In this document: piece by piece, positions 1 to 42,812 of the stretch | Position numbering within the stretch: the stretch's first letter is position 1 | Layout of the letters: each line of letters opens with the position of its first letter | Notes under the pieces: generated by a model | What the model was told of the DNA's origin: nothing | Database searches by the model: none | Seen by the model: only the letters and a program-made list of their open reading frames with translations | Translations under genes and position numbers: made by a program | Source of the DNA: Boswellia sacra | Taxonomy: Eukaryota > Streptophyta > Magnoliopsida > Sapindales > Burseraceae | Reading direction: 5' to 3' | Assembly: GCA_013180625.2 (NCBI GenBank) | Contig: SNVD02002649.1 | Coordinates: 1-64,000, forward strand | Length of the DNA stretch: 64,000 bases

Positions 1-5
1 GGTAA

Positions 6-1124
6 AATCATGATCTTCATGTCAAATTTGCATCCCTAGCTAAAAGAATCGAGGATTTAGAAATGTGGTCTATGCAAGAAAATGTCTGTCACAATTGCAA
101 TCCTAGTGATCATCCAACGGATGATTGCCCAAATGTGCCTACCTTTAGGAAAAGCCTCCATGACCAAACCAATGTTTTAAACACTTTCCATAGGTCAAAT
201 CCTAATCCTTACTCACAAAATTTTGGATGGAAAAATCACTTGAATTTGGATTGGGAGAATGATCATCATGCACAATCTTACCAACCTCCCTTTCAATCAT
301 ACCAAAATTTTAAAAATTCTCATGATCATGTATATGCCTCTCCTCCTAGAAATAGCTTTGAAGAGACAATGCATTTATTAAGTCAAGCTAATCAGAATAT
401 AGCAAACTTGAATGATGCTCTTGAAAAACTTGCATTTGAGAAAGGTGAGTTTCCATCTCAACTCGAGCCAAACCTTATCAACCCACACGTGAGTAATCCA
501 AGTGGCCAACATCTAGATAAAGATCCGGTAAGTGCTCTAGAAGAAGATTCGGTAAGTGCTCTTCATGATGATAAGGTTGATCAAGAACATGTCCTTAACC
601 CTAATGAGGAAGATGATGAATCAATTCTAAAGGGTAAGGAAGAGGTTGATCAACTTTCACCTAACAAGGAAAAGACCGAATCCTCACTTAGGCACTCATA
701 TCATCATGCAAAGGAATTTAATCAAAATTTTGACACTAACGAATTTTTCGAGCATGATGAAAATGAGGAAGCTTATGGGTCTAAAACTAATGTGGAAGAC
801 TATATCCAAAATGAGAATTTGTCAAGTCCTTCAGAAATCGGGTTAACTAGTTCATTTGAACCAAGTATGCAACTAGTGTCCATTGCTTCTAAAGAATTTT
901 CATTGCTTGATTTTGTACAGGTGAAGGAGATTAAGAGTTGGGAGTCATGCTTTGAAAAAAGGCAAGAAGAAACATCCACACTCAAGAATACATGCCTCAA
1001 GGACAAACAAACTCAATCAGTGGTAATCTCTTCCATTCTCACAAATAAAGGAAAAAGAGAGGTACCACCTCAATGGCATATTTTTGACCGTGGTAAATTA
1101 CTTTCGAAAAGATTCCTCTTTTAG
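6..1124 (+). pseudogene. gag C-terminal part, Athila-like retrotransposon
   Basis: Open frame of 372 codons downstream of a stop at 3-5. Codons upstream of the ATG at 63 still match the gag of the 33-43 kb element, for example HDLHVKFASLAKRIEDLE against HDLQAKYASLARKVEALE, so the real start lies outside the window and the stop at 3-5 is a nonsense change. The segment has a degenerate Cys/His motif (CHNCNPSDHPTDDCP), then an Asn/Gln/Pro-rich stretch with NPYSQNF and a long acidic, Lys/Glu-rich tail. The frame ends at 1124 without any protease domain, unlike the longer copy, where gag runs on into an aspartic protease. Gag normally forms the cytoplasmic particle that packages the element RNA. 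Confidence 0.75.
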
Positions 1125-1414
1125 CCTTTTTTCACGATTAACCAAATTTTATCCGTTTGTCGCCCATATTTTCATTTATATTACTTGATTTTTGCTATCA
1201 TTTCTAGTAACCATCATCCCCCCCCCCCATAAAAACTTTGTTGTTATTCTATATTTTATTTTACGTGCTTTTATTTTATTTGTGTGTTTGCATTTTGTTT
1301 TCTGGTCAAGTGGCGGATATGGTACTCCGTGACTTTTAAAGTTGGTTTTTCAGTTCCCTAAAAACTGTTGCTCACCTTGCATCCATTTTCTTTTCTTCTC
1401 TCTCATTTTCTTCA

Positions 1415-1556
1415 TAGTCTTGGGAATTTGACTCAAAACAACCCTGTTTGTCAGTTTATAAGAAAACTGGATGGGAAGCATATCCCCAACCCATAGAAGG
1501 TGTTTAAGCCATTTCTGGACGTAAAACCAGAGGAAGATGTGAGCCACAGTCATAAC
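1415..1556 (+). other. Conserved post-pol block (copy 1 of 3)
   Basis: About 140 bases that recur at 39118-39262 (+) and 27394-27515 (-). The best-kept core contains ACCAGAGGAAGATGTGAGCC. In each case it lies downstream of the coding part and upstream of the 3' region. All reading frames contain stops in at least one copy. It could be the end of a lost env-like ORF or a non-coding signal; the sequence alone does not decide. Confidence 0.7.
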
Positions 1557-2595
1557 TACCTATACACATGCATGTGTGCCATCAATTTTAAATTTCTTAT
1601 CTTTTATTTTATTTGTAGCATTTTATTTTATGAGTCTTTTAGGTCATCTCTCTTGAATAACAAAAGCTTCAGGTAATGTCTCTTATGCTTTATCTTTCTA
1701 CATTTAAACATTGAGGACAATGTTTCATTTGGTTGGGGGGAAGGATAGCAGACATAAGTGTGTCTTGAATTTTCTTTTTTCTTGAAAAAAAAAAAGTGAG
1801 TTAGTAATTAGATTCAGAGTGCGATGTAAGGAGTTCAAATCCTCTTAAGACGCATTCTTGGTCAGGAATGGCAGTGTAGGGAGGGCCAGTTTGAACTCTT
1901 GAAACCCATTCTAACCAATTTGTCATTTTATTTTGATCTTGTGAACTCATTTTAGCTAACTTGATATTATTTAGTCTTGATTTTTGAATTTTATATCAAG
2001 GAGGTCTTATTCATTTCACTTTGAATTATTCAAATCTATGAACTCTCACAACCTTATCATTTAAAAATTGTGTGCTTATGTACTCATTAAGCAAGTATTC
2101 ATGAATCTTTCTTCACATACACACACATACCTTGATGCATGATTGTGGGTGGCAAAATGAAATGTTGTAATATTGAGTTCTTTTGTTTTGTTTAGGATAA
2201 CAACACAAAGGAAGGGGAAAGTTAAAAAAAAAAGTTAAAAAGAAAAGTTAAAAAAAAGTGAAAAAAAAGAAGAGAGCAATTATGGATAAGTTTGGTCTCG
2301 TAGCCTCCTTAATTCGAGCAATTAAGCCCGAGGGGTGCCTCAACACCTAATACCCTAAGACCAATTGGTTTGGGAGCTATTGGCCCAAAGCTCGCTACAT
2401 GGATTAATGAGAAAGCTTAATGGGATTGAAAATTGCACTATCCACAAGTTTCTAAGCAAAAATAAAGCATCGGCAACCCGAGTCGTTAAGCTCGTAGGGG
2501 TGTCTTAACACTTAATGCCCTAAGGCCAACTGGTCTGGGAGTCATTAGCCTAAGGCTCGCTACATGGGTTAAAGATGCATTCTTTCAAAAAAAAA

Positions 2596-2641
<46 letters not shown>

Positions 2642-2947
2642 AAATAAATGAATGCCCTTTACGTACAGTTGTTAGCCTTAACAAATATTAGAACCGATAT
2701 GGTTTCTTTCTAATAAGCCCCATAGTCATGTGTTGACTGAGCACAAAAAGAAGGTTTACAGAAATCTTGACCGAAGGGTACATGAGTCATAAAAAAAATA
2801 ATAATAATAATTGGTTGAGAGTTTGTTTATTTGGATAAAATCAAGGAGAGTGCAACAATGACCACCTTGGATGTAAAATTCTATAAATCACTTCTAAATA
2901 ATAACGCTTTAATTGCTAGGGACTAGCAATAAGCTAGTTGGAGGGTG
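1557..2947 (+). other. 3' untranslated region and polypurine tract of the left Athila-like element
   Basis: No gene is seen. The sequence is collinear with 40125-41440 of the 33-43 kb element, including the run reading ATTGAGGACAATGTTTCA and the paired tracts around 2300-2580 that share TAAGCTCG/CTCGCTACATGG. The last bases before the LTR (GTTGGAGGGTG) form a short purine-rich priming tract. In contrast to the other two Athila-like elements, no LOG-like sequence lies between the shared block and this region. Confidence 0.7.
2587..2640. repeat. Compound microsatellite A(n)-(CA)n-(TA)n
   Basis: A run of A is followed by about 15 CA units and then TA units, inside the 3' untranslated region of the left Athila-like element. 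The second element has only a short A-rich tract at the matching place (41120-41130), so the array grew after the copies diverged. Confidence 0.95.
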
Positions 2948-4457
2948 TGATGAACACTTAAATATGCATGTTTAATAAGAGTTTAGTTCATCATATTGCA
3001 TTAATAGTGTCATTAAATTCCTCAACTTAAACATATTTGTAGCATTGCATCTTTGGAATTAATTCCTCTTAATTTTGGTTTTGTTACAGGTTCGGTAAAA
3101 TGGGCATAACTCTCTATTTATAGATCAGAATGGTGCAATTCTTAATGTTTGGAAAGCTGATTCAATTGTCTGCAAGATTGCATTTCACAAGCATCATCAA
3201 ATTCGGGCTCTTAGTGGACCAAAATTGGGCTTGAAGTGAACCCATCTACAGGCTCGGCCCAGTCTGACCAGGCCTCAGTCTTTGGACCGTATCTCTCAAA
3301 ATACGTATCTAAATTGTGCAAATCAATATGTTCTAGAAAGCTGAGAGAAATGTCTACAACTTTCATGAAGACATATTTTAAAATTCTTAATATTTCAATG
3401 TCAAAATTGATGGTCAAATTCGGTTCCTAATGATCCCAATTGTCAAAGATATTTACAACTAATAATGGATAATTATGCCCTTGTAATTTGACAAGTTTGC
3501 CCCAGGATGTATCTATAAATAGAGGTGCCTTGTGACCCATTAGGGCATCTTGGCCTTGGCTGGAACATTTTGGCTTTGGCTAGGATCTTGTATTGTGTTT
3601 GTGTGTTTATGTTATTAATGAATTTCCTTTTTCTTGCATTTTATTTTCTTTCTATTATAATGTTCTTCTAATTTCTCTTTTGCTAAGGTGAAAGGGTGAA
3701 ACCCTTGATATGAGAATAAGGATTCTCTAACCCTTAATATGTGCTTAATAATCTTAATCTTATAATGTTTATTCAATATGATTTATATTTAATTTCTTAA
3801 TCAATCTTGACACCACTTGTAAAGTGGAGGTCTTGATCCATTGTAGACAATCCTTGGCACATCAAATGCTTGGATCCTTCCTAGAAGTCGTATGGTTCTT
3901 CCTTACCGACACAAGTCTAGTTAGGAACCTTGATTTGTTGTAGACATATGGTGATTGGCACATTGATACTTGAACCCATTTACAAGAAGTGGTATAAATA
4001 TTGGTAATGAAACAAATATAATTCATATAACTAAAATGGGTTAATTATCCTTATTTGAAATATCAAGGGCGGATCCCCTAACCTTAGCCTTCATTGTTAT
4101 TGTGTTAATTCCTCTTGTATTTTAATTATTCTATTGTTTATGAACTTTTTATTTTATTTACTATGGTAGGTTCTACCACCTTATGAAATTGTTCTTTAAT
4201 TTACTATGGTTGGTTATACCACCTATTTCCACGGATGGTTTTACCTCCTCTTGCTTTTTGTTTTATATTTGAATGGTCGGTAATACCGCCTATCATTTTA
4301 CATATTTATTGATATTATCTTGTCATTTCTTTGAATTATTCATATCATATTTGCTTATCTTATAATTTGTAACGCTAAAATCCCCTTCCTCAGTCTCACC
4401 GAGATTATTACTTCGACACTCCTATACTTGGGAGACAATCGTTTTTCGGATGTATCA
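2948..4457 (+). repeat. 3' LTR of the left Athila-like element
   Basis: Starts TGATGAACACTTAAATATG and ends GATGTATCA. It matches the LTRs at 33132-34463 and 41441-42812. It is longer (1510 bases) mainly because of extra sequence around 4145-4300 with imperfect repeats of a GGTTNTACCACC type. The promoter box is at 3513-3522. Confidence 0.9.
3513..3522 (+). promoter_or_regulatory. LTR TATA box
   Basis: CTATAAATAG, kept in the same surroundings in all three LTRs of this family (also 33689-33698 and 42010-42019). It is the likely start signal for retrotransposon transcription, with the R region just downstream. Confidence 0.65.
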
Positions 4458-17230: not shown

Positions 17231-17235
17231 TTAAT

Positions 17236-18146
17236 TGTTGGGTTTTGCAGCGTACGGAAGTTACGAATAATATAACAAAAAACTGTAATATAAATCGAAA
17301 CAAGATTATTACATGGTTCGTTTAAAACAAACCTACATCCACGGGCAACAAGAGTTGTAATCCACTATGTTGTATGTGTTTACACTCGACTTAGGGCTCT
17401 TTACAGTGGTAGACACCTGCTTACTCACTAACCTAATCTATGTAAACTTGATCAACCCCGATCACAACCATAGTCCTTCACACACTCTTCTGATGCTGTT
17501 CTTTTTTCTATTATGATTATCTTAACAACACACTGTTAAGAATAACATAACACCCGTAATTGCTACAGACTTGTAACTAGTAGAGACACATGTGATTACT
17601 CAACTCCCTGAAGCTCACACAACCTATAACAATTAACCAAAGCGTAAAGCTTTACACAAGACATGAAAAACAAAAAAAAAAGCTCTCAAACTTGCTCTTG
17701 ATTGCTCTCTCTCAATTTGCGTTGAATGCCTTGAATGTCTTGAATTAATTCCACTAAAAGCTATGAAGATAGCTTTATATAGTATTTTATATGAGTTGTA
17801 ATCCTTGTCAAAATCCTGTAAAACTCATAAGGAAAGTTTGGATAACAATCAAACATTATAGGAAGTAATAATATACTTCTCATAAGTAAACTATAATACT
17901 TAAATAATATCCTAATCTAATAAGGGATAATTATAAAACTTCCTATTCAACTAGGATTCCAAATCCAAACTTATTCCTATTTAACTAGGATACCATATCA
18001 AAACTTATCCTATTTTAATTAAAATTCTCCTAATACAAAACATCTATATAAAATGAATGAGATTAGGAAAATATTCATATTTAATGTTTTTATAACAAGA
18101 TGACAAATTACTCATGTGCAATGCACATGCACTTCTAGAACCAACA
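17236..18146 (-). repeat. Copia 3' LTR
   Basis: 911 bases, TGTTGGG to CCAACA; pairs with 21120-22027. Contains an AGCTTTATATAGT box shared by both LTRs. Confidence 0.93.
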
Positions 18147-19369: not shown

Positions 19370-20818
19370 TGTTTCTTAACGCAAACCTGTCGTGTGTTAT
19401 GTAACTGTCTAAACTGACTTGCCTTTTTCTTCAAAAATTTTTTTAATTTATAGCACCTAGGTATAATGTGACCTTTTACACCACAAAAATAGCAAGTAGG
19501 AACAAATTTTTTTACCTTTTCTGGATTTGGAATGAAAGAACCATTGGGGAAGCAAAATCAGTCATATCTTTAAAGCTTGAGTTAGAAGTGTTACCAGAAT
19601 TTGAAGCTTTAACAAACACTGTCTTTGATGTTGAAGCGTCATTCTTTTCATCATACCTCAGCCCATGTTTGATGGAGCTATCACGGCTTAAACTCATAAT
19701 TTGATCAAGCTTTGCTAAGCCTACTTGAGTTGATTAATGCACTTGTTTGCCTTATCCAATTCTGCAATAATTTTTTGGATACATTCTGTCTTGTTTGTCA
19801 TAATAGCTTCCAGTTTTATGATTTTTTCATCTGTAGATGCTATTTCGCTCTTGAGCACTTCTTGTTCATTCTAAAGAGTTTTGATTTGTACTTTCTGCTT
19901 CTCCAACATCTCATGAAGTGCATTATACGACTTCTTAAGTTCTCCATAATATTCAGCATCCTTCTCAGCATCTGACTCATCAATGTCTGATCTATTCTGT
20001 TCTGTTAAGTTAGACACAAAAGTTTGTTGCTTATCTAAAATAGTCCCATTGAATGCTAAAAAATTGTTGGGGATGTCTTCATCTATTTCTGAGTCATCAT
20101 CACTCCATGTTGCATACAAACTCTTTTTCTTCTTATAATTAGGATACTCAGTTTGAATGTGCCCAAAACCCTTGCATTCATAACATTGAATACCTTTTCT
20201 CTCAAACTTCTCTTCTTTTTTCTTTGTAGGTTCTTTACGAACATTTTTTAGCATCAAAGTTCTTAGAATTTGTCTTATTGAGATTTTTTTTTTCATATAT
20301 TTGACAAAATTCCCTGTCAAATGAGCAAGTTCATCATTGGAATCATCAAGATTGCTGTCATATTTTGCTTCTTTTTTCTAAAGAACGAATAAAGGCAATA
20401 CTCTTTTCCTTCCTTCTTGACTTTAAACCCTTCTCATATGCTTGAAAAGACCCACCCAATTTATCAACTAGCACCGATTTCACATTGTCGCTTTCTTTGA
20501 TAGTTGTGACCTTAGGCTGAAATTTTCTGGTAAAGATCTAAGAATCTTGCAAATAATTTTAGCCTCAGTATATTCCTCACCAAGCATATAAGCAAAGTTA
20601 GTAATTTCACAAAGGCTAGTGTGAAATTCACTAATGGTTTCTTCTTCATGCATAACTAAGTTTTCAAATTTAGAAGTCAAAGTAAGCAACTTAGATTCTT
20701 TAACCCTTTGAGTACCTTCATTCTTTACCTTAGGGATATCCCAAGCTTCTTTTGCGATGGTGCACTTTAAAATTAACCCAAACTGTTGAAGGTTGACAGC
20801 ATTAAAAATTGCATTCAT
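19370..20818 (-). pseudogene. Copia gag remnants
   Basis: On the minus strand, 20818-20480 encodes a gag core (KEAWDIPKV, ISEFHTSLCEITNFAYMLGE, ICKILRSLPENF), as in copia UBN2-type gag. 20320-19871 encodes a zinc knuckle CYECKGFGHIQTEYPNY, in which the last Cys is Tyr, followed by an acidic, coiled-coil-like tail. Further on, about 19500-19370, is a second CCHC-like motif, CYFCGVKGHIIPRCYK. The frames are separated by stops, so no full gag is made. After this the copia polyprotein should continue with protease; here only short non-coding sequence follows. Confidence 0.8.
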
Positions 20819-21105
20819 GCCTTTAGAATTCCATCCAGCTAATCGATATTCAGCTTCACTCCACTCATTCTGTGGTTTCTCAATCTTCTACCAAGCGTCA
20901 TTAGCTTTTGTTGGGTGTGTCTAGCCGTGAACAATGCTTGACCACACTCTTTCATCAATTGATTTGATGAAAGCCCTCATTTTAACTTTCCAATAAGCAT
21001 CGTTTGCATCTTCAAGTAACGGTGGTTGAGTGACTGATCCTCCTGCCCGAAATCCTTCTATATCTATAAAAAAAATCTGATCTACAATACTATGTCAGTG
21101 TACCT

Positions 21106-21117
21106 GCTCTGATACCA
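21106..21117 (-). promoter_or_regulatory. Copia primer binding site (tRNA-iMet)
   Basis: TGGTATCAGAGC on the minus strand, two bases inside the right LTR. It matches the 3' end complement of plant initiator tRNA-Met. Confidence 0.9.
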
Positions 21118-21119
21118 AT

Positions 21120-22027
21120 TGTTGGGTTTTGCAGCATATGGAAGTTACGAATAATATAACAAAAAACTGTAATGTAAATCGGAACAGATTTTTACGTGGT
21201 TCGGTTAAAACCAACCTACATCCACGGGCAACAAGAGTTGCAATCCACTATGTTGTATGTGTTTACACTCGACTTAGGACTCTTTACAGTGGTAGACACC
21301 CACTCACTCACTAACCTAATCTATGTAAACTTGATCAACCCTGATCACAACCATAATCCTTCACACACTCTTCTAATGCTACTCTTTTTCTGTCACGATC
21401 ATCTTAACAACACTCTGTTAAGAATAACATAACACGCGTAACTGTTACAAGCCCGTAACTAGTATAGACACATGTGATTACTCAACTCCCTTAAGCTCAC
21501 ACAACCTAAAACAATTAACGAAAGCCTAAAGCTTTACACGAGACATGAAAAACAAATAAAAATGCCCTCAAACTTGCTCTTGATTGCTCTCTCTATTTTT
21601 GCATTGAATGCCTTGACTGTTTTGAATTAATTCTACCAAAAGCTATGAAGATAGCTTTATATAGTATATAATATGAATTGTAATCCTTATCAAAATCCTG
21701 TAAAACTCATAAGGAAAGTTTGGACAATAATCAAACATTATAGGAAGTAATAATTTACTTCTCCTAAGTAAACTAGAATCTTAAATAATATCCTACTCTA
21801 ATAAGGGATAATTATAAAACTTCCTATTCAACTAGGATTCCAAATCCAAACTTATTCCTATTTAACTAGGATACTATATCAAAACTTATCCTATTTTAAT
21901 TAAAATTCTCCTAATACAAAAAATCTATATAAAATGAATGAGATTAGGAAAATATCCATATTTAATGTTTTTATCACATGGTGACAAATTACTCATGTGC
22001 AATGCACATGCACTTTTAGAATCAACA
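21120..22027 (-). repeat. Copia 5' LTR
   Basis: 908 bases, TGTTGGG to ATCAACA; near-identical to 17236-18146. TTAAT follows at 22028-22032. Confidence 0.93.
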
Positions 22028-24413: not shown

Positions 24414-26328
24414 AATTACCCCACACTTAGACTTTGCTAGTCCTTGAGCAACTAAAACGACATGAAAACAAAAATAGATCTAGACAAAATCACAAATAAA
24501 ATAAAACATATAAATGTTGTGACTTGCAAATGGGCCTCAGAGATTGCATTTAATTATAGCCTAAGGAAAACTTCAAAATTATGCACTTGATCATGAATTG
24601 TCATCTCATAGATTAGTTTTGTTCCACTTCAATTCCTCGAGTGTGTGTGTGTGTGTGTGTAGAGCCATTCTCACCTAATCACTTGTAACCCGGATGAGTT
24701 TATGCATAAAAATGAATCGTATTTAATGGTGAAGATGTGCCTATAAACAGACTCAATAGGTCTACTTTTCAAGTCACTCTCCATTAATGTAGACAAGAAT
24801 AACATTGAGGATCAGGTGGGGCTTTATTAAGCTTGTAGTATTTGGCAAGGGTGAAGGTATGATAAAGGAAATATTTTAGCTTAAAACACCCAAAAACACA
24901 CAAATCATTCAAGATTGTGCAGAGCTCAACTCCATAACATAAATTTTGTATAACATACGTACCTAACAATTCTCCTAAGTTTATTTACAACACTTGATCT
25001 CTTTATTTTCATAAAACAAAAGAAACTACATCCCAAACTTATATTTCATTCTTTCCAATTATACTCAAGGGTATAGTTCTTTTTTACGCAATTTTTTTCT
25101 CTCTGTTTTTTTTTTCAATTGTCGACTATCTCTCCTCCACACTTAAACAACACTTTGTCCTCTATGTTTAAGTATATGGAAGATAAGTATAGCTTTCTTT
25201 TTTTTTTAACAAATACAATAGAACTCACTTTCATTGCTCATTACACCACCCAACCTCCCTCAACTTCCCAAAATCAAAACATAGCTCAAAACGTAGTCTC
25301 AAATGATCTACATGCTCATAGGTGAGGGACAAACTGTTTGAAAAAGTTCATTTAAGGTTAGGAAATATTTTAGTTAGTTGACAAAGAAAAGGTTTAAATA
25401 AGCTCAAAGAGGTAACTAAGGATCAATATCATATAAGGGTTGGCTAAGAAGGCTCAAACGATCCAAAGATTACCTAAATCATTTCCCTAATGTTGTACAG
25501 TCTAGGATTTTGCCTCAAGTGACCATCAAACAGGTTCTAGACTTCATTGAAATCTTATAAAATGCTTAACTTGCATAAACCTTCTCTAAGTAAATAAATA
25601 ACTCAGTGATTATGGCCATGTGCTCCATATTGTGCAAGGAATTAAAAGCAAAGCAAAAACCAATAAATAGTTCAAGCACACAGATCTATGCATCATTTAT
25701 CATTTTTCAAGAGTTATTCTCAATTCAATTATTACCTTATCACTGGCCCACAAAATGCAAGAAAAGAGGTACGTGGCATTGTTAGACCTAAGTCAAGATT
25801 GTATATTTCCAGTAGCCTACGGACTTATGGCTTCCAACCTATATACCTTTGTTATGAATGAACAAAAAGGATGCAAGACACCTCAAACAATAGTGAATAA
25901 ACAAACTACAAATTTATTTAACTAGAATGCATTTCAAGGGTTGAAGAAACCTTCTATTTTGCCATTCTTTATTTCTTTTTCGTACTTTTTTTTAATCAAA
26001 TTTGATAGAGACAAAAAACACATAACAACTTTAAACTATATAAAACTAATCATAGTCATAAAATAACAAAATCCAACAACCAGTAAACAAAAACAGGCTA
26101 GTTAGAATGGGTCTCAAAAGCTTAGAAGTTAGCCTTCTCATTCTATCATTCTGGATCGAAGAGATCTAGAGTGCGTTTCAATAAAACTCTAACTTTTTTA
26201 GGCACTGCTCTAGAGGGAAAGATTAGAAAATGTTACCTAGCGTGAAAGTCCAAAGAAATAACCTGAAACATCTCAAATAAACACAATAAAAAGAAAGCAA
26301 ATAAATAAAAGTGAAGCAGACTAGTAGA
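24414..26328 (-). other. 3' untranslated region of the minus-strand Athila-like element
   Basis: No gene is seen. A stretch around 26090-26230 on the minus strand resembles 1815-1920 and 40325-40440 of the plus-strand elements (shared GACCCATTCTAAC-like end), supporting common descent. A (GT)n run lies at 24642-24660. Confidence 0.55.
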
Positions 26329-26942
26329 TTATAGGTGGAGCGTCAAATCCAGTTTACATCTTTTACGGCCTTCCGTGAACTAATCTATCCTAGTTGTTGC
26401 TGGATCAGATGTAGGAACGAATTCATGTAGTTTACCAATCAACTTACAATTGAAGTTGTTACTGAGCTTTGCCTCGCTAATTGTGAGATGAAATTCTATT
26501 CTACAACTTGATAAAGAAAAGAAAACAAACCATCAAAAGAATTTTTGACATTGAACAAACCAATGGGTTTTCGATGGATGTTTAGATAGGCTGAGGAAGC
26601 AATTTGAAATATTTTCTCTAATGTACAATAACCACCTGGTAAAGCTATAATTCCATTAGAGTTACAAAGCATATGTGTAATAGCTCATGCATGCTCGAGA
26701 CCTTAACTCTTCTCCAATTGTGTTACCTATGATACGTCTTACAACTAACGGTTTAGGGATAATGCCTAGAATCTGGCTCCCTCATAAGTTTGCAGTTGTT
26801 GATACATGCCCCATTAACCCAAGGCTATCCCCCATAAGCCAAATGAATACCTCTCTCAACTAAAACCCTACCAAGATCAAGAGCTGCTGCTGTTGTAAAC
26901 TCTCGGACTTTACCAAGTTCAGATCCACAAAATGCACATATA
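26329..26942 (-). pseudogene. LOG: LOG-like (cytokinin riboside 5'-monophosphate phosphoribohydrolase) retrogene remnant
   Basis: Intronless on the minus strand, broken by several frameshifts and stops. Recognisable pieces in order are [37 protein letters not shown] (other frame), a region matching ALPGGYCTLEKIFQIA, LNIHRKPIGLFNVKN, and a tail CKLDLTLHL followed by a stop at 26331-26329. LOG enzymes release active cytokinin bases from their nucleotides in the cytosol. The catalytic PGGxGTxxE motif reads PGGYCTLEK, so the second Gly (to Cys) and the Glu (to Lys) are changed. It is more decayed than the copy at 39472-40110, but ends with the same tail (CKL-L-LHL) and holds the same place in its element. 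Confidence 0.8.
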
Positions 26943-27393
26943 TTTTAGAATCATCAAATTGGTATTTTCTCCATTTCTACATGTGCCCTAACCATGTGTA
27001 TGATAATAATGCCTATTGGGTGTTGTATTTTTCAAGTTCAAAAGATGTTATAACAATGCCATTTGAAAATATGGAGAATGGATGGATACACATGTAATGT
27101 TCTTAGATTTTACACATAGGGATATAATTTCAGTGGGGGCTACCTGATGCATATTTATCACCCTCTGATTTGAAAAGTTGAGATATGCTTTCGGCGGGGG
27201 TTGACAATACCCCTACACTTATCTCCCACATGAGCTTATGTTATGGGTAGTCATGTGGTTTGTCAAATAGAAAACTTGAAATTAAAACAAAAAAATCAAC
27301 AAACAACAACACAAAGACAATAACAATGATCATGTCAAACAAAAGAAGAAAAATAAATTTCAATAATAATAGCACACATTCAAATATGCAAGT

Positions 27394-27515
27394 AGTTATG
27401 ATTGTGGCTCACATCTTCCTCTGGTTTTATGTCTAGTAATGGTTGAAATGCCTTCTATGGGTCAGGGATATGCTTCTCATCATGTTTTCTTATAAACTAG
27501 TAAATAGGATCTTTT
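27394..27515 (-). other. Conserved post-pol block (copy 2 of 3)
   Basis: Reverse complement matches 1415-1556 and 39118-39262, including AGAGGAAGATGTGAGCCACA. It precedes the LOG-like sequence by about 450 bases. Confidence 0.75.
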
Positions 27516-27529
27516 TTAATTAGATTCAT

Positions 27530-27945
27530 AAGGCTGCAGTTTATCATGAAATTGTGTCCAAAGATTAAGCAATTCATGGTAAACAAGTCCACAAGGATGT
27601 AACTCAAGAGTTAGTGAAATATTATCTAGAGATTCATTACTAAGACCATTCTTAATAAATATAAGTATATCTTCTCTATTCCTCGACACAAAACCTCATG
27701 ATCGATAACTCTAGTTACACTTCCGTCTAACACATTTATAAAATACTTTTAATCTCTTTGCTCTTCGCCTTTTGGCATAATGGCTCCTCCCTATATCAAG
27801 CATGTATATTGTGAAATTAATATAAGGCTTATTAGATAATCTTACGTTGGCTTTGATAAGCCGTCGGATATCCATAGGCATTTTTAGGATCATCAACATC
27901 CAAAGTCTATACAACCGTACTTCATAAATTTTGGACACAAGATTT
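27530..27945 (-). other. Unidentified coding-like sequence upstream of the conserved block
   Basis: The minus strand carries open stretches such as ESLDNISLTLELHPCGLVYH (about 27640-27570) and an open frame of 75 codons at 27938-27711 (IYEVRLYRLW, RRLIKANVRLSN). I do not recognise them. Given the position after pol in an Athila-type element, an env-like third ORF is one possibility. Confidence 0.35.
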
Positions 27946-30440: not shown

Positions 30441-31443
30441 CTTTCGATTGTTGACCGGTTGACAAAGTCCATACATTTTCTTCCTATACGTACCACTTTT
30501 ACCATGGATAAATATACTTGGATCTACATGGATGAGATAGTCAAACTTCACAGAGTATTGGTATCTATTGTATCAGATCAGGATCTAAGGTTCACCTCTT
30601 TGTTTTGGAGGAGTTTGCACAAATTCGTGGGAACTAGGTTGAACTTTAGTACGACTTTTCATCCCAAATAGACAGACAGTCGGAGAGGACCATTCAAAAT
30701 TTGGGGGATATGCTTAGGGCTTATGCGATTGATTTCAAAGGTAGCTGGGATAAGCTCTTGACCTTGGTGGAATTTGCTTGTAATGACAGTTATCAAGTTA
30801 CCATCGGTATGGCCTTGTATGAAGCGTTGCATGGAAGAAATGTAGATCTCTTGCCCATTGGGATGAGGTTGGCGAGAGAAAGTTGCTTGGAGCCAAAATT
30901 GTTCAGCAAACCTATTAAGTCCTTATAAAGGTGAAGGAAATACTGAGAATGACTCAAAGTAGACAGAAGCGTTATGCTGATCACCTTAGAAAGGAGCTTG
31001 AGTTTGAGGTGGGTGACAAGGTTTTCCTCGAAGTGGCTCCAATGAAAGGAGTGATGAGATTTAGAAGGAAAGGAAAATTAAATCCAAGGTACATTGGCCT
31101 GTATGAAATTTTAGAGAGGATCAGGGATGCAACTTATCCGTTTGTGCTACCTACCTCATCATCGAGTGTGCACGATGTATTCCATGTATCTATGTTAAGG
31201 AAATACATCTTAGATCCTTCTCATGCTTTGAGTTCTGAATTACCATAACTAAAAGACGAGTTGTCATACGAAGAAGGGCCCTTACAAATAGTAGATCGCA
31301 AGTACAATGGAATTCTAGAATTATGTTAAAGAATTCTTTTGGTGAAAGTACAATGGAAGAATCACTCCGCTAAAGAAGCAAAATGGGAGCTAGAGGATGA
31401 GATGCGCGAGAAATACCCCTCCTTATTCGAGAAAATGGCCTAA
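30441..31443 (+). pseudogene. Chromovirus (Ty3/gypsy) integrase fragment with C-terminal domain
   Basis: Encodes the late part of an integrase core: RLTKSIHFLPIRTT, VSIVSDQDLRFTSLFW (catalytic Asp region), LNFSTTFHPK, then after a stop and shift ERTIQNLGDMLRAYAIDF, SWDKLLTLVEFACN, and the C-terminal GPY/F-type region (FEVGDKVFLEVAPMKG, RYIGLYEILERI, VFHVSMLRKYILDP). The last frame ends KEAKWELEDEMREKYPSLF and a TAA at 31441-31443, consistent with a chromodomain-type tail of the Tekay/Del group. Frames shift near 30671, 30928 and 31248. Reverse transcriptase and everything upstream are missing. Confidence 0.85.
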
Positions 31444-33131: not shown

Positions 33132-34463
33132 TGATGAACACTTAAATATGTATACTTAATAAGAGTTTAATTCATCATATTGCATTAATAGTGTCATTAA
33201 ATTCCTCAACTTAAGCATATTTGTAGCCTTTGCATCTTTGGAATTACCTTTCTCTTAAATTTGGTTTTGTCACAAGTTCGGTAAAATGGGTATAACTTTC
33301 TATTTCTATATCCGAATGGTGCAAATCATAATGTTTTGGAAATCTGATTAAATTATCTATAAGATTGTATTTCACAAGTATCATCAAATTCGGACTCTTA
33401 GTGGACCAAAAATGGGCTTGAAGCAAACCCATCTGCAGATTCAACCTAGCTTGATGACTCATCAGTATTTTGACCATATCTTTCAGAATACGTATCCAAA
33501 TCATATAAATCAAGATTTTCTAGAAAGATGAGAGAAATATCTACAACTTTCATGAAGACATGTGATTTAAATTCTCAATAATTCAAGGTCAAAGTCGGTT
33601 CACCTAATTACCCCAATTATCAAACTTGGTGCATATAATATTTGATAATTATGACTTTGTAATCTGCCAAGTTTGCCCCTAAATGTATCTATAAATAGAG
33701 GTGCCTTGTGACCCACGAGGGCATCTTGGCCTTTGCTGGGATCTCTTATTATTATGATTTTCTCTCTTGTATTTTTATGTTATTAATGAATTTCCTTTTT
33801 CATATAATTAGTTTTCTTTCTCTTATAATGTGTTTCTAATTTCTCTCTTACTAACGTGAAAGGGTGAAACCCTTGATATGAGAGTAAGAATTCTCTAACC
33901 CGTTGATATATTCTTAATTATCATAATCTTGTATTGTTTATCTTATATGATTTATATTTATTTTCTTAATCAATCTTGACACCACTTGTAAAGTGGAGGT
34001 CTTGATCCATTGTCGACAATCCTTGGCACATCAAATGATTGGATCCTTTCTAGATGTTGTATGGTTCTTCCTTACAGACACGAATCTAGTTAGGATCCTT
34101 GTTTTATTGTAGACATATGGTGATTTGCACATTGGATGCTTGAACCCATTTACAAAAAGTGGTATAAATATTGGTAATGAAGCAAATATAACTCATATAA
34201 CTAAGGGCGGATCCCCTAACCTTAGCTCTCATTATTATTGTGTTAATTTCTCTTGTGTTTTAATTATTCTCATTTATTAACTTGTTCTTTACTTATACTT
34301 GCTGATGTTATCTTGTCACCTCTTTGAATCATCCATATTGTATTTGCTTACTTTATAGTTTGTAGCGCTAAAATTCCCTTCCTCGTGGATCGATCCCGGT
34401 CTCACTAGGTTTATTACTTTGACACTCCTATACTTGGGAGACAATCCTTTTTCAGATGTGTCA
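33132..34463 (+). repeat. 5' LTR, Athila-like element
   Basis: TGATGAACAC to GATGTGTCA, 1332 bases. It lacks about 30 bases present in the 3' LTR near 42525-42555. The two LTRs show many substitutions and indels by eye, so the insertion is not recent. TATA box CTATAAATAG at 33689-33698. Confidence 0.92.
33689..33698 (+). promoter_or_regulatory. LTR TATA box
   Basis: CTATAAATAG, conserved among the family's LTRs in this window. Confidence 0.65.
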
Positions 34464-34469
34464 AGTTTT

Positions 34470-34487
34470 TGGCGCTGTTGCCAGGGA
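34470..34487 (+). promoter_or_regulatory. Primer binding site, Athila type
   Basis: TGGCGCTGTTGCCAGGGA begins seven bases after the LTR end. It differs from the commonly seen TGGCGCCGTTGCCGGGGA by two transitions. Confidence 0.8.
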
Positions 34488-34661
34488 ACGCGAAAATTGG
34501 CGTGCAAAATTGTAAGTGTTCTCCTTTCTCATCTTAGATCTTAATTTTTTCTTTTTTTGTTCATCTTTTCTTCTCTGTTCTTTTCTCTTCCTTGTATGAA
34601 AATTTGGTCACAAACATTTAGTGGTAGACTTGTTAGAAAGACATCATCTTCTTTAGAGAAC

Positions 34662-37600
34662 ATGGCCGACAATCAAGTGGAAAGATTCACGAATGAAGGG
34701 GACAACCTTTCCCAACAAAATGATCAAAACCAGCCAAGAACCCTCAGAGATTACATGAATCCGGTAAGGACTAGTGCACCATCTTGTGTAGTTTCTCCTC
34801 CAAATTCAATCAATTTCAATTTCAATTTCAAACCAAGTTATGTTCGACTTCTACCCACTTTTCATGGCCTTGATATGGAGAACCCATATTCATACTTGAA
34901 AATCTTTGAAGAGGTATGTAACTCCTACACTGACCCAAATTGTAGCATAAACACCATTAGATTAAAGCTTTTTCCTTTTTCTTTAAAAGATAAAGCTAGA
35001 ATATGGCTACAAAATTTGAGGTCGAATTCCATCAGTTCATGGGATGAGATGAAACAATAATTTTTGAAAAAATTTTTTCCTACCCATTTTCTATCAATGT
35101 TGGGATAGGTATAAGGAACTACTTAATACCTGTCCTCACCATGGTTTTGAAACTCGGAGAATAGTTGCACACTTCTATGAAGGGTTAACACCTCAAGATA
35201 GGCAACTAGTAGAATTAACGTGTAATGGAGAATTTGGAGATAAAGACCCTGAGGAAGCAATTGACTACCTAGATTCCTTGGCAGAAAAGGCACAAAATTG
35301 GGACACTGCTGGCACCTATGAGGTACCAAGCAAGGCCCCAACCTCGACATCTAATAAAGGCATTTACAACCTTAGGGAAGACCATGACCTTCAAGCCAAA
35401 TATGCATCCCTAGCTAGAAAAGTCGAGGCTTTAGAGATAAAAAAGAGTGGTCAATTAAATTCTATTCAAGAAAATGTCTCTAACATTTGTAATGACAATG
35501 AACATTCTACTGATGATTGCCCAACTTTGCCTGCCTTTAGGGAATGTCTCTATGAGCAAGCCAATGCCTTGAATACTTTCAAAAGGCCAAATCACAATCC
35601 ATACTCACAAACTTATAATCCTGGTGGGAGAAATCATCCAAATTTCAATTGGAAAAATGACAATCTTGCACAATCTTCACAAGCCCCTTTTCAAACATGA
35701 CAAAATTTTCAAAATTCTCATGATCATGCATATGCTCCTCCTCCTAGGAATGACTTTGAAGAGACATTGCATTCATTCATTACAAAGCAAGAGACTTTCA
35801 ATAGTCAAACTGCTCAAACATTAGCAAATTTATCAGACACTCTTGCAAAATTTGCATCTACATTTAGCATCCAAGAGAAAGAAAAATTTCCTTCTCATAC
35901 TTTGGAAAACCCCAAAGATCAATCTAACTCAAATGTAGGGAGTTCAAGTAACCATTATTTTGACCAAGCCAAGTCAGTCATGACCCTTTGCAATGGTAAG
36001 GTTGTTGAAAAACATATTCCTAACCCTTGTGAGAAAGAAGAAGAATCGATCTCTAAAAGGCAGGCAGAGGTTGCCAAACCAACACCTAACGAAGAAGAAA
36101 CCAAATCCTCATCTGTGCCTCCATTTCCTCAAGCATTAGCCACACAAAAGAAGCCAACTCACAAATGTGAAATCTTTGAAAATTTTAAACAGGTAAAGGT
36201 CAACATTCCCTTGCTTGATGTGATCAAATAGTTACCTTCTTGTGCAAAATTTTTGAAAGACTTGTGCACTGTGAAAAGGAAATTGAATGTTCAAAAGAAG
36301 GCCTTTCTAGCCGAGCAAGTAAGTGCCATTCTTCAAAATAATAATACAGTGAAATATAAGGATCCAGGTTGTCCTACAATTTCATGTGTTATTGGAGACC
36401 ATAAAATTGAACAAGCTTTACTTGATCTTGGTGCTAGTGTGAATTTGCTTCCATACTCGATTTTTCAGAAACTCAATCTAGGTGAGTTAAAACCGACTTC
36501 TATGACTCTTTTGCTTGCAGATAGATCAATGAAAGTACCAAGAGGAGTAGTAGAAGATGTGTTAGTTCAAGTTGATAAATTCATTTACCCAGTGGATTTT
36601 ATCGTCTTGGACACACAACCAGTGGAAGTAAGCAATTCAATTCCTGTTATTTTAGGGCGTCCATTTCTAGCTACCTCTAATGCTTTGATTAATTGTAGGA
36701 ATGGAGTCATGAAGCTATCATTTGGGAACATGACATTAGAACTTAATGTTTTTAATATGTGCAAACAACCACATGAAGAAGAAGATGAAATTGAGGAGGC
36801 TAATATGATCGAAACTATTGTGGAAGATCACATCCAAAAAGGGAGTTCTTCTGACCCTTTGGAAACTTGTTTAGTGAATTCATTATAATCAAGTATGGAA
36901 CTAGAGTCTGATCTTTCTGATATAAGTTCTTTATTAGATTGTGCACAGGTGATGGAAAAAGGCTCAAAACCAAGATTCAAAGAATTGGCGCAAATGAATG
37001 AAAGCAAGGAAGAGGAAGCTCCCAAGTTAGAATTAAAGCCCTTACCTGAAGGACTGAAATATACATATCTTGGGGAGAATCAGACATATCTGGTGGTAAT
37101 TTCTTCATCCCTCACATGCGAGCAACAAGGTAAGTTGATAGAAGTGCTTAAAAGACATAAAAATGCAATCGGGTGGACTTTAAAATATATAAAAGGAATT
37201 TTGCACACATAGAATACATTTAGAGGAAAATGTCAAAACATCCCAACAACCTCAAAGAAGATTGAATCCACATATGAAAGAGGTTATTAGGGCTGAAGTT
37301 CTTAAACTACTTGATGTAGGAATTATTTATGCTATTTCTGATAGCAAGTGGGTAAGGCCTACACAAGTAGTACCTAAGAAATCTGGTATTATAGTAGTTA
37401 AAAAAGAAAAAGGGGAATCATTGACAACTCGAGTCTCATCTAGTTGGAGGATGTGTATTTATTATAGAAAATTAAATGCTGTCATTAGAAGAGACCATTT
37501 TCCCTTACCTTTCCTTGATCAAATTCTTGAAAGAGTAGCACGACACCCGTACTACTGCTTTCTTGATGGATACTCAGGCTATTATCAAATTCCTATTGCA

Positions 37601-38960
37601 CTCGAAAACCAAGAAAAGATCACATTCACATGCCCCTTCAACACTTTTGCATTTAGGAGAATGCCTTTTGGACTTTGCAATGCCCCAGCCACTTTTCGAA
37701 GACCCATGTTAAGCATTTTCAGTGATATGGTTGAGCATTGTTCAAAAGTTTTTATGGATGATTTAAATATCTTTGGAAACTCTTTTGACAATTGTCTTGG
37801 AAACTTAGAAAAAGTCTTAAAAAGGCTTGCAGAAAAAGGTCTTATTTTGAATTGGAAAAAATGTCACTATATGGTCACTTCGGGAATTGTCTTAGGCCAT
37901 ATGGTGTCTTCTAAGAGAATTGCAGTGGACAAAGCAAAAGTGGAATTAATTTCCCATTAGCCTCCACCAAAAACAGTCAAAGAGGTTCATTCATTCTTAG
38001 GGCATGTTGGATTTTATAGGAGGTTCATAAGAAATTTCAGTGCTATATCTAAACCGCTTTGTAACCTTTTAATAAAAGACACTTATTTTGAATGGACTCA
38101 AGAATGTCAAATGTCTTTGATAAATTAATTGGACTTTTAACAACTGCTCCAATTATGCAATCTCCTGATTGGTCCTTGCCTTTTGAATTGATGTGTGATG
38201 CAAGTGACTATGCCATTGGTGCTGTCTTAGGACAAAGAAAAGAAGGTAAGCCTTATGTCATATACTATGCAAGTAGGACTTTAAATGATGTGCAAATGAA
38301 TTACACAACAACTGAAAAAGAACTACTTGCAGTAGTATTTGCATTAGACAAATTTCGATCCTATTTAATTTGTCCTCCAACAATTGTTTGCACTGACCAT
38401 GCAGCTGTGAGATATTTAATGTCTAAATAGGATGCAAAACGTAGATTGATACGGTGGATCTTATTTCTTCAAGACTTCAACATCACAATAAAGGATAAGA
38501 AAGAAGCCGGAAATGTCGTTACAGATCATCTTTCAAGACTAACGACAGAGGCATTAATTGAAACTTCACCTATCAATGATTCTTTTCCTGATGAATTTTT
38601 ATTTTCCGTTGCTACTGTACCTTGGTTTGCTAACATTGTAAATTTTCTTACAACAGGAAAAATGCCACCTCATTGGAATGCTCGAGACATAAGGAAAATT
38701 TTAACCGAGGTGAAAAATTTTTATTGGAATGACCCATATCTGTTCAAATATTATCTAGACCAAATAATAAATAGATGCATACCCGACAATAAAGTAAGTA
38801 GTGTCATTAACCTTTGTCATTCTGAAGCATGTGGAGGACATTTTTCATTTAGAAAAACAGCTGCTAAAATCTTGTAATATGGATTTATTGGCCCACCTTA
38901 TTTAAAGATGCACATGCATTTTGCAAAACATGTGAAAATTGTCAAAAATTGGGATCCATT
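34662..38960 (+). pseudogene. gag-protease-reverse transcriptase-RNase H-integrase polyprotein remnant
   Basis: Starts MADNQVERF at 34662. Gag: LPTFHGLDMENPYSYLKIFE, LFPFSLKDKARIWLQNL, then WDRYKELLNTCPHHGFE and IVAHFYEGLTPQDRQLVEL. A Cys/His motif (CNDNEHSTDDCP) follows. Protease near 36410: LLDLGASVNLLPYSIF, with Asp-Leu-Gly instead of Asp-Ser/Thr-Gly, as usual in this clade. Reverse transcriptase 37262-37960: SWRMCIYYRKLNAV, LDGYSGYYQIPIA, PFGLCNAPATF and the catalytic FMDD. RNase H about 38040-38430: CDASDYAIGAVLG, TEKELLAVVFALDKFRSYL. Integrase zinc motif only (to about 38960). Stops lie at 35058, 35698, 36229, 36886, 37958, 38428 and 38875. Frameshifts lie near 35080, 37205 and 38110. 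The integrase catalytic core is deleted. Confidence 0.92.
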
Positions 38961-39117
38961 TCAAAAAGAAACATGATGTCTTTGAATCCCATTCTTGTTG
39001 TTGAAATCTTTAACTGTTGTCTTTGAATCCGAACGACTATTGAGACACATTCTTGTAGACTTGTGCAACGTGAAATTTTTAACTTATAGACACAATTCTG
39101 AGATAAGCAGGAATGCT

Positions 39118-39262
39118 ATAGTCTTGGGAATCTGACTCAAAATGACCCTGTTTGCCAGTTTATAAGAAAACTGGATGGGAAGCATATTCCTAACTCATAG
39201 AAGGTGTTTAAGCCGTTTCTGGACGTAAAACCAGAGGAAGATGTGAGCCACAGTCACAACTA
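39118..39262 (+). other. Conserved post-pol block (copy 3 of 3)
   Basis: Closely matches 1415-1556 and the reverse complement of 27394-27515. It lies just after the integrase truncation and about 210 bases before the LOG-like sequence. Confidence 0.75.
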
Positions 39263-39471
39263 TCTGTACATATGGATGCGTACCATCATTTTTGAATTTT
39301 AATGCCTCGTAGCTATCATTTTTGAATTCGTATCTTTTGTTTGACTTATTTCATCATATTTTTTTGAATTTTTATGCATTATTGTCAACTTTTTCAACAA
39401 ACAACCGAGCTACCTATTTAGATGTCATCATTAGCATACCTTTTTGCACTCCATAAATACCACATATCTTG

Positions 39472-40110
39472 TTCTCTTCTTGCACTCCAAAGATATGTGT
39501 ATTCTGTGGATCTCGACTAGGTAAAAGTGAAGAGTTTGTCGAGGTAGCAAATTATGTTGGTAGGCTACTGGCTGAAAGAAAAATTCATGTGGTTTGTGGG
39601 GGAGGTAGCCTCGGGTTAATGGGTTGTGTGTCAACAGCTGCACATGTAGGAGGTAGTCAAGTTTTATGAGTTATTCCTGAAGCCTTGGCTGTAGAAAGCG
39701 TCGTTGGAAAAACGGTCGGGAAGGAGTTACAGGTCTCCTCTATGCATGAACGCATGGCACATATGCTTATCAATTCATACGCCTTTATTGCTTTACCAGG
39801 TGGCTTTGGTACTCTTGAAGAAATTTTTCAAATTACCTCTTGGGCCCAACTGAATCTCCATAAAAAACCCATAGGTTTGTTGAATGTCAAAAATTTCTTT
39901 AATCCTTTAATAAGTTTTGTTGATGCAGCTGTGGAACAAAATTTTATCCCTCATTTGGCGAGACAGATCCTTGTTTCTACCATTTCTGCTGGTGAGTTAC
40001 TTCACAAATTGCAAGTAGTTGATTATGAACCTGACCCATCTAGTACTCAAATTAATTGGTTAGGAGGGCAAAACAAAAAGTGCAAATTGAATCTGAATCT
40101 CCATTTGTAA
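39472..40110 (+). pseudogene. LOG: LOG-like (cytokinin riboside 5'-monophosphate phosphoribohydrolase) retrogene inside the retrotransposon
   Basis: A contiguous, intronless reading of about 212 codons covers the whole LOG domain: PKICVFCGSRLGK at the start, CGGGSLGLMGCVSTAAHVGG, VIPEALAVES, VSSMHERMAHM (substrate-binding Arg region), ALPGGFGTLEEIFQI (the family's PGGxGTxxE motif, intact) and LHKKPIGLLNVKNFFNPL. It ends in a tail KKCKLNLNLHL and a stop. Only one in-frame stop (TGA, 39667-39669) breaks it, at a position where the family has Gly, and there is no ATG in frame upstream: a stop lies at 39454. Host LOG genes have several introns, so this is a cDNA copy. LOG converts cytokinin nucleotides to free bases in the cytosol. 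Flanks on both sides are retrotransposon sequence shared with the LOG-less copy at 1-2947. Confidence 0.92.
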
Positions 40111-41440
40111 TTTTTTTCTTCTTGTCCTTTATTTAATTTTAGCATTTTATTTTATAAGTCTTTTAGGTCATCTCTCTCGAATAACAGAAGCTTCAGGTAA
40201 TGTCTCCTATACTTTATCTCTCTACATTTAAACATTGAGGACAATGTTTCATATGGTTGGGGGGGAAGGATAGTAGACATAAGTGTGTCTTGAATTTTCT
40301 TTTCTTGCCAAAAAAAAAAGCGAGTTAGTAATTAGATTCAGAGTGCGGTGTAAGGAGTTCAAATCCTCTTGAGATGCATTCTGGGTCAAGAATGACAGAG
40401 CAGGGAGGACCAGTTTGAACTCTTGAAACACACTCTAACCATTTTGTCATTTTATTTTTGCATTTTTGAAGACTTATTTTAACTAACTTGATATTATTTA
40501 GTTTTGATTTTTGAATTTTATAGCAAGGAGGTCTTATTCATTTCACTTCGAATTATTCAAATCCATGAACTCTCACAACCTTATCATTCAATAAACTGTA
40601 TGCTTATTTACTCGTTAAGCAAGTATTAATGAACCTTTCTTCACACACACACATACCTTGATGCATGATTGTGGGTGGCGAAATGAAATATTGTAATATT
40701 TGAGTTCTTTTGTTTTGTTTAGGATAACAACAAAAGGAAAGGGAAAGTTAAAAAAAAAAGAAAAAGAGAAGTGAAAGCAAAGAAAAAAAGTGAAAAAAAA
40801 TAGAGAGAGCAATTGTGGATAAGTTTGATCTCGTAGCCTCATTAATTCGAGTAATTAAGCCCGAGGGGTGCCTCAACACCTAATACCCTAAGACCAACTG
40901 GTTTGGGAGCTATTGGCCTAAAGCTCGCTACATGGATTAAGGAGAAAGCTTAATGGGATTGAACATTGCACTATCCACAATTTTCTAAGCAAAAATAAAG
41001 CATCAGCAACTCGAGTCGTTAAGCTCGTAGGGGTGTCTTAACACCTAATGCCCTAAGGCTAACTGGTCTAGGAGTCATTAGCCTAACGCTCGCTACATGG
41101 GTTAAAGATGCATTATTTCAAAAAAAAAGAAGATAAATAAAATGAATAAATGCCCTCTACCTAAGGTTGTTAGCCTTAACAAATATTAAAACCGATATGG
41201 CTTCTTTATAATAAGCCCCATAGTCATGTGTCGACTGAGCACAAAAAAAAAGGTTTGTTGATATCATGATTGAAGGGTACATGAGTCATTTAAAGAGAAA
41301 AAAATTGGTTGAGAGTTTGTTTATTTGAATCAAATCAACGAGAGTGTAATAATGACCACCTTGGATGTAAAATTCTATAAATCACTTCTAAATAATAACG
41401 CTTTAATTGCTAGGGACTAGCAATAAGCTGGGTGGGGGTG
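40111..41440 (+). other. 3' untranslated region and polypurine tract of the Athila-like element
   Basis: No gene is seen. Collinear with 1600-2947 of the left element. Ends GGTGGGGGTG directly before the LTR at 41441. Confidence 0.75.
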
Positions 41441-42812
41441 TGATGAACACTTAAATATGTATGCTTAAGAAGAGTTTAATTCATCATATTGCATTAATAG
41501 TGTCATTCAATTCCTCAACTTAAGCATATTTGTAGCCTTTGCATCTTTGGAATTAACTTTCTCTCAATTTTGGTTTTGTCACAGGTTCTGTAAAATGGGT
41601 ATAACTTTCTGTTTATAGATCAGAATGATGCAAATCATAATGTTTTGGAAAGATGATTAACTTATCTACAAATTGTATTTCACAAACATCATCAAATTCA
41701 GGCTTTTAGGGGACCAAAAATGGGCTTGAAATGAACCCATCTGTAGATTCTACCCAGCTTGACCACACCTCAGTATTTTGACCATATCTCTTAGAATACT
41801 TATCCAAATCATATAAATCAAGATGTTCTAGAAAGTTGAGAGAAATATATATGACTTTCATGAAGACATGTGATTAAAATTCCCAATAATTCAAGGTCAA
41901 AACCGATGGTCAAAGTTGATTCACCTAATTACCCCAATTGTCAAAGTTGCGGCATGTAATATTTGACAATTATTACTTTATAATTTGACAAGTTTACCCC
42001 TGAATGTATCTATAAATAGAGATGCCTTGTGACCCATGAGGGCATCTTGACCTCTGCTGGGATCTCCTGTTATTGTGATTTTCTCTCTTATATTTTTATG
42101 TTATTAATGAATTTCCTTTTTCTTATAATTAGTTTTCTTCTTATAATGTGTTTCTAATTTCTCTCTTGCTAAGGTGAAAGGGTGAAACCCTTGATATGAG
42201 AGTAAGGGTTCTCTAATCCTTTGTTATGTTCTTAATTATCATAATCTTGTGTTGTTTATCTTATATGATTTATATTTATTTTCTTAATCAATCTTGACAC
42301 ACTTGTAAAGTGGAGGTCTTGATCCATTGTCGATAATCCTTGGCACATCAAATGCTTGGATCTTTTCTAGATGTCATATGGTTCTTCCTTACCGACACGA
42401 ATCTAGTTAGGAACCTTGATTTGTTGTAGACATATGATGATTGACACATTAGATGCTTGAACCCATTTACAAGAAGTGGTATAAATATTGGTAACGAAGC
42501 AAATATAACTCATGTAACTAAAATGGGTTGTTTATCCTTATTTGATATATCAAGGGCGGATCTCCTAACCTTAGCTCTCATTATTATTGTGTTAATTTCT
42601 CTTGTGTTTTAATTATTCTCATTTATTAACTTGTTCTTTACTTATACTTGTTGATATTATCTTGTCACCTCTTTGAATCATCCATATTGTATTTGCTTAC
42701 TTTATAGTTTGTAGCCCTAAAATTCCATTCCTTGTGGATCGACCCCGGTCTCATCGGGTTTATTACTTTGACACTTCTATACTTGGGAGACAATCCTTTT
42801 TTGGATGTGTCA
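41441..42812 (+). repeat. 3' LTR, Athila-like element
   Basis: TGATGAACAC to GATGTGTCA, 1372 bases; TATA box at 42010-42019. Pairs with 33132-34463. Confidence 0.92.

Follow-up and report, generated by a model that had tools for sequence, protein, structure and literature searches.

A LONELY GUY-family gene as a probable long-kept accessory gene of a Ty3/gypsy retrotransposon lineage, seen as two dead copies in Boswellia sacra

Within a stretch of 64,000 nucleotides of Boswellia sacra DNA (contig SNVD02002649.1, hereafter the window) a LONELY GUY (LOG) reading lies inside a retrotransposon, termed element A, and the explanation that we favour, with a probability of roughly 0.7, is that a Ty3/gypsy lineage (OTA, probably Athila-type) has long kept LOG as an accessory gene. 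Long ago such a lineage would have acquired the coding sequence of a LOG, placed after pol and ahead of the 3' LTR, and would then have maintained it under protein-level selection, with both copies in the window being dead remnants. The case for an accessory gene is built on the same position of LOG in two diverged elements, the related flanks of the two copies, the constraint between them and the conserved catalytic motif in their relatives. What LOG may have done for the element is the least certain part of the explanation. An intact copy would express the LOG enzyme from the element RNA, the enzyme would turn cytokinin riboside monophosphates into the free bases, and a cell made more prone to divide or to stay meristematic in this way might favour the inheritance of new copies. 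This hormone step is a reasonable hypothesis on which we would nonetheless not wager at even odds; the firmer of the two claims is that of an accessory gene kept over a long time.

Table 1. Features of the window, with positions counted from its first letter
Feature	Positions	Strand	Remarks
Third relative, C1, cut by window start	1..4457 (end approximate)	+	gag-like frame
Element sequence downstream of second LOG	26212..26331	-	matches 40108-40221
Second, more decayed LOG copy (M)	26332..26945	-	frameshifts, stops; same C-terminus reached
Element sequence upstream of second LOG	27243..27611	-	matches 39036-39417
Element A, LTR retrotransposon, Ty3/gypsy, probably Athila-type, host of LOG reading	33132..42812	+	paired LTRs; gag/PR/RT/RH/IN-start in order
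Element A 5' LTR	33132..34463	+	TG...CA
Element A putative primer binding site	34470..34490	+	TGGCGCTGTTGCCAGGGAACG; candidate by sequence
Element A gag region, three stretches between stops	34545..36231	+	PF03732 2.5e-05 on 34545-35060
Element A aspartic protease	36232..36888	+	PF13650 7.7e-06
Element A reverse transcriptase and RNase H	37193..38430	+	PF00078 2e-24, PF17919 1e-30
Element A RNase H end, spacer, integrase zinc-binding domain start	38431..38877	+	PF17921 0.00053
182-bp block upstream of LOG, common to all three relatives in the window	39118..39299	+
LOG (cytokinin riboside 5'-monophosphate phosphoribohydrolase-like) reading	39490..40110	+	single TGA in frame; no recognisable N-terminus or start codon
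Element A 3' LTR	41441..42812	+	purine-rich GGGTGGGGGTG immediately ahead

The window is AT-rich DNA of plant type (GC 0.327). Element A (Table 1) has the hallmarks of Ty3/gypsy elements, with TG...CA ends on both LTRs and a PPT ahead of the 3' LTR, and its candidate primer binding site presumably resembles the complement of the 3' end of tRNA-Asp. The LTRs are identical at 1223 of 1327 ungapped positions (K2P 0.083), and the 5-bp flanks, GCCAC on the left and ACCAT on the right, agree at 3 of 5. The gag stretches 35068-35700 and 35701-36228 gave no Pfam match. Protease, reverse transcriptase, RNase H and integrase stand in that order, the integrase being represented by a zinc-binding match alone (PF17921), which at 20.5 bits is under the cut-off of 25.5; the long frame stops within this part, at 38877, and the region after the integrase is lost. 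The integrase core (rve) was not found in the eight frames scanned, all of at least 90 aa and outside 36889-37212. Among the 7997 reverse transcriptase candidates that shared most words and were scored, the two best are 84% and 80% identical to that of element A.

The initial annotation had called the element Athila-like; it is a Ty3/gypsy element, for which Athila membership is plausible. An additional RNase H is given as a mark of Tat elements in the available text of PMC6317226, and element A has only a short spacer from RNase H to the start of the integrase. The same text reports Athila ORF-1 (PF03078) from 16% of Athila elements; it is not a required feature, and no match to it was found in the element A frames scanned. 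The placing of LOG between pol and the 3' LTR, inside the paired LTRs and where a third ORF would be, was confirmed.

The LOG of element A has 206 codons (39490-40107) followed by a stop at 40108-40110, with no frameshifts and one TGA at 39667-39669. It had been described as intronless and nearly complete, with an undamaged PGGFGTLEE motif and a single nonsense codon, and this description holds: the part after the nonsense codon matches PF03641 at E 7e-31 (107.6 bits against a cut-off of 27) and the reading with that codon marked X matches TIGR00730 at 1.1e-44 (152.3 bits against 96.35). The extent first given was right for the reading as such and not for its start, which had been placed at 39472, 18 bases ahead of recognisable LOG. 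A chance reading as its source is ruled out by the E value of 7e-31. The best full-length relatives (P0004-P0006, 215-217 aa) are 67-69% identical over 95% of the query, and no intron-sized gap is present in the alignment to them. On the cytokinin equivalog of NCBIfam, NF058542, whose cut-off is 300 bits, the reading scored 98, and three intact relatives, at 110-124 bits, are likewise below that cut-off.

This copy of LOG is dead. Approximately the first 11 residues are unlike those of the relatives and no ATG is present at the expected start, and with the recognisable N-terminus and the ATG missing the copy is unable to make a normal LOG protein. The suggestion of a live hormone gene therefore fails for element A, in which the start codon is unrecognisable and the frames scanned are without an integrase core. 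The one nonsense codon seen compares with 0.88 expected (P of one or none 0.78), which fits neutral decay of an intact reading after insertion. It had been considered that LOG might be flanked by a target duplication of its own or be unique to this one locus. Round the LOG of element A neither an own target duplication nor poly(A) is present, the longest strings shared by the flanks being 8 bp, and a processed LOG nested in the element and bounded by such a duplication was rejected on this ground; uniqueness to one locus is excluded by a second LOG copy, M.

Copy M was found by comparison of the whole window with itself, 12.5 kb away on the opposite strand, and is another LOG-bearing family member of the kind that the initial annotation had asked for. 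It is 67% identical to the LOG of element A. An in-frame ATG at 26974-26972, at the place where the relatives start, is seen by eye 11 codons ahead of the first recognisable residue of M, with stops between. A single alignment leads from 39489 to 40221 against 26945-26212 and continues beyond the LOG stop, identity being 67% in LOG and 60% immediately downstream. Upstream, identity is 78% in the 182-bp block and 59% directly after it, and across the 72 bases ahead of LOG it is 44%, no better than for unrelated sequence. When the flanks were set against 100 control segments from 43000-64000, with identity taken over alignment columns, both lay above all 100, the right flank by a fair margin (0.53 against a control maximum of 0.49) and the left narrowly (0.51 against 0.50). 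As LOG and related flanks occur in the same order in both, LOG most likely held its element position before the A and M elements diverged, with two captures at one place as the alternative. This bears on the proposal that the element had captured a LOG cDNA: LOG is indeed in the element, but the capture does not appear to be fresh, as LOG most likely predates the split from a relative that is 30-40% diverged. That it was captured as cDNA can only be inferred, since introns could also go later by retrotransposition.

LOG was under constraint as a protein for much of the divergence between A and M, as judged from codon comparison of the two copies. A dN/dS below 1 had been looked for, and the NG86 value is 0.265 (95% bootstrap 0.14-0.42) over 196 stop-free codons; 200 of the 206 codons could be aligned, and four with a stop (one in A, three in M) were excluded from dN/dS. 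Because both copies also decayed for a while, this value has been pushed up. Changes at codon positions 1, 2 and 3 number 70, 46 and 86 in 200 codons (chi-square p 1e-4), and pN/pS is 0.43 in the LOG frame; the effect disappears when the same alignment is read in the two alternative frames, which give 0.75 and 1.40. At four-fold sites 15 of 41 places differ, close to the weak flanks (approximately 40%), as is expected for one shared age. A point on the other side is that the NG86 pS of 0.59 is above this four-fold figure and above the 22% divergence of the adjacent 182-bp block.

The third relative, C1, contains no pol and no LOG. It matches A at 39118-39299 and from approximately 40119 onwards, with 1193 of 1308 positions identical, so that sequences from either side of LOG are joined at 1594/1595, where by eye there is TCTTTT-like microhomology. 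Its gag-like frame is open from 6 to 1121 and has no Pfam match, and its 3' LTR runs from 2948 to approximately 4457; we take it to be similar to gag-only non-autonomous elements. C1 is a mosaic, as its gag is 67% identical to that of A and its 3' part 91%, and the argument on LOG loss is thus confined to the 3' part. Here the simpler reading is that C1 lost LOG, not that A gained it, since the more distant copy M has LOG. Taking C1 to prove that LOG entered A recently was rejected, as M suggests that LOG is older than the split of A and C1. From the absence of LOG in C1 it follows that some copies, at least, can do without the gene. A 110-bp direct repeat (81% identical, 40835-40943 and 40999-41108, + strand) lies between LOG and the 3' LTR of element A, and it is also found twice in C1, at 2302-2410 and 2466-2575.

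Within the 182-bp block all three relatives share the 25-bp string AAACCAGAGGAAGATGTGAGCCACA without a mismatch, at 39228-39252 (+), 1524-1548 (+) and 27403-27427 (-), and the block is better conserved than the sequence on either side of it. Translated in one frame, this sequence gives RKLDGKHIPNP*KVFKPFLDVKPEEDVSHSHNY or close to this, with the TAG in the same place in all three, and it could be either coding or a cis element. A 23-base string from the block gave no exact match in the collections searched, which were non-plant.

Proteins related to the LOG of element A are numerous, with 5394 of 5737 candidates at E of 0.001 or below, of which the best 120 were listed. These 120 include 24 from Reevesia pubescens, on 14 differently numbered chromosomes to judge from the gene names, and 11 from Diplodiscus trichospermus, and one Pterospermum cluster comprises 327 sequences. 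An ordinary plant genome has a handful of LOG genes, and numbers such as these are therefore unlike an ordinary LOG gene family. The sources of the best 120 are jgi for 36 and ena for 33 others, 69 in all, against none of the 120 canonical LOG matches listed, and three of the jgi proteins (P0103, P0107, P0114) have full-length frames of 217 aa on longest contigs of 21-32 kb. From this contrast the P0001-like relatives may be intronless, though the sign is indirect, each of the two lists holding just the best-ranked matches. A Xanthoceras gene model (P0002) reads LOG, linker, LOG, and in a comparison with this one sequence the linker is identical at 24 of 42 residues to the gag-protease region 36091-36216 of element A (E 4e-10). 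An alignment was also made of 24 of the 120 relatives with P0001 (alignment A1). Across 116 relatives Arg98 is conserved in 111, Thr118 in 116, Glu120 in 113 and Glu121 in 113, and we take these four to be the catalytic residues. Elsewhere LOG-like sequence was met once in viral contigs (L001, 44%) and once in prokaryote genome contigs (L002, 41%, in a Paludibacteraceae MAG).

Two trees were built from proteins without their gene context, and the one relative tied to an element, P0002, stands outside both. The larger holds 116 of the 120 relatives with A, M and three reference proteins (P0002, P0003, P0015 and P0031 being excluded by length), and the smaller, whose bootstrap had not fully settled, holds 29 of the 120 relatives and 25 of the 120 canonical LOGs, hand-picked for spread, with A, M and two outgroups. 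In the smaller tree A, M and the 29 relatives are on one side of a branch with support of 100/94 and the 25 canonical plant LOGs, including a gymnosperm and monocots, on the other; one change is seen in this branch in 200 of 200 bootstrap trees. A, M, P0004 and P0008 are grouped in both trees (89/83 in the smaller, 94/52 in the larger). A and M are weakly sisters in the smaller (91/34), whilst in the larger A is placed with P0004 and P0008 (95/15) and M just outside. The two trees do not support an exclusive common origin of A and M among the sampled LOGs, and lacking a firm sisterhood the argument for their common origin rests on the shared flanks. In the larger tree the clade of A and M also takes in LOG proteins with Populus names, known as proteins alone. 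No donor gene was found, as the clade of A and M nests in none of the canonical groups sampled from the two lists of the best 120, from which intermediates may be missing.

The same observations can be set against other accounts of how LOG came to be in element A. A one-off retrocopy of a host LOG, dropped into element A and unrelated to any family, would agree with C1 being without LOG at the matching place. It is contradicted by M, a second LOG set in matching order within a diverged element, unless capture was independent and at the same place, and there is neither poly(A) nor a target duplication round LOG, which makes this account very improbable. It could also be that LOG is a passive passenger, one or more members of a host gene family having been picked up, so that the constraint dates from their time as host genes. 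Some relatives are named in the manner of host genes (LOGL10 in Populus, LOG3-like in Primulina), which would be in keeping with this, as would the lack of a firm sisterhood of A and M and the absence of gene context for the relatives. However, a passenger does not readily account for flanks and order that are common to both copies, for dispersed clusters of tens to hundreds that are unlike an ordinary gene family, or for the Xanthoceras fusion and the published elements of Citrus and Populus, and we regard it as quite unlikely.

A variant of the accessory-gene explanation, overlapping with it in its odds, is that the enzyme serves the element otherwise, for example through cleavage of other nucleotides or a role within particles, so that the LOG fold is kept and a cytokinin role is incidental. 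The separation of the clade from the sampled canonical LOGs is in its favour, as are the NF058542 scores of 98-124 out of 300 bits in four proteins, although that library was made for the annotation of bacteria and archaea and LOG enzymes have this motif and Arg98; it is unlikely on balance. Returning to a long-kept accessory gene, a broader form of it would have a cytokinin-activating (or related) enzyme as the selected accessory gene of one retrotransposon lineage, spread over many eudicot families and as old as the clade, with a parasite biasing the fate of host cells through a hormone-pathway enzyme of its own. We put this forward tentatively and with the odds leaning against it. A point against the accessory-gene explanation in general is that the LOG-bearing copies read as DNA are just the two of the window, both dead.

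The canonical plant LOGs with solved structures, At2g37210 (2a33) and At5g11950 (1ydh), which are presumably LOG3 and LOG8, share the fold family, the PGGxGTxEE motif and the arginine at position 98 with the element LOG. The element LOG differs from them in the separate clade described above and in being carried by a mobile element.

LOG-bearing gypsy elements are already in print. The available text of PMC9289625 describes the YgdH domain, which is otherwise that of LONELY GUY proteins, from the Gypsy consensus of both Citrus sinensis and C. clementina and, when no filter is applied, from Populus trichocarpa as well, in line with Steinbauerova et al. 2011. These elements are thus like element A in having a LOG-family domain on a Ty3/gypsy element of eudicots; the likeness is by description, as section 12 of that text states the presence of the domain alone, without position, selection or copies. 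In the same source, as far as available, Phalaenopsis Ty3/gypsy elements have a captured ORF for a 2-ODD RNA demethylase, likewise an extra enzyme ORF that was kept, with conserved cofactor-binding residues. They differ in the enzyme and in their Ogre/Tat-like lineage, and activity was shown in vitro there, whereas LOG is known here by its sequence. Athila-type elements have the same layout, in which pol is followed, ahead of the 3' LTR, by an additional gene in sense orientation, but in the accessible part of PMC7264820 this gene is env-like and in element A it is of the LOG enzyme family. In the literature searched, supplements aside, no analysis was found of the selection, position or function of LOG in elements, and neither the constraint nor a co-resident older copy was found there. 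Cytokinin is not mentioned in the available text of PMC13317346 and PMC7264820, nor is "log" as the start of a word in the former or "lysine" in the latter.

The extra ORFs of plant retrotransposons are mostly without known domains according to the available text of PMC9289625. A 2019 survey of plant elements counted extra ORFs only when of at least 250 codons (PMC6317226, available text), and a LOG of approximately 216 codons would be passed over by this rule. As the LOG enzyme has a clear chemistry, it makes the role of an extra ORF directly testable. There is a warning for annotation as well: LOG-like gene models occur by the dozen in some Malvaceae assemblies, and these may be genes of elements and not hormone genes of the host.

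The window as a whole gave no tRNA or Rfam match. A Tf2-1-like SH3 domain at 30919-31248 (+; PF24626, 1.1e-21) is probably the end of a separate gypsy integrase. A copia-type gag remnant is found at 20483-20887 (-; PF14223, 1e-14), and it is flanked by 0.9-kb direct repeats at 17233-18146 and 21117-22027 (+), which are 92.6% identical and are possibly the LTRs of another element.
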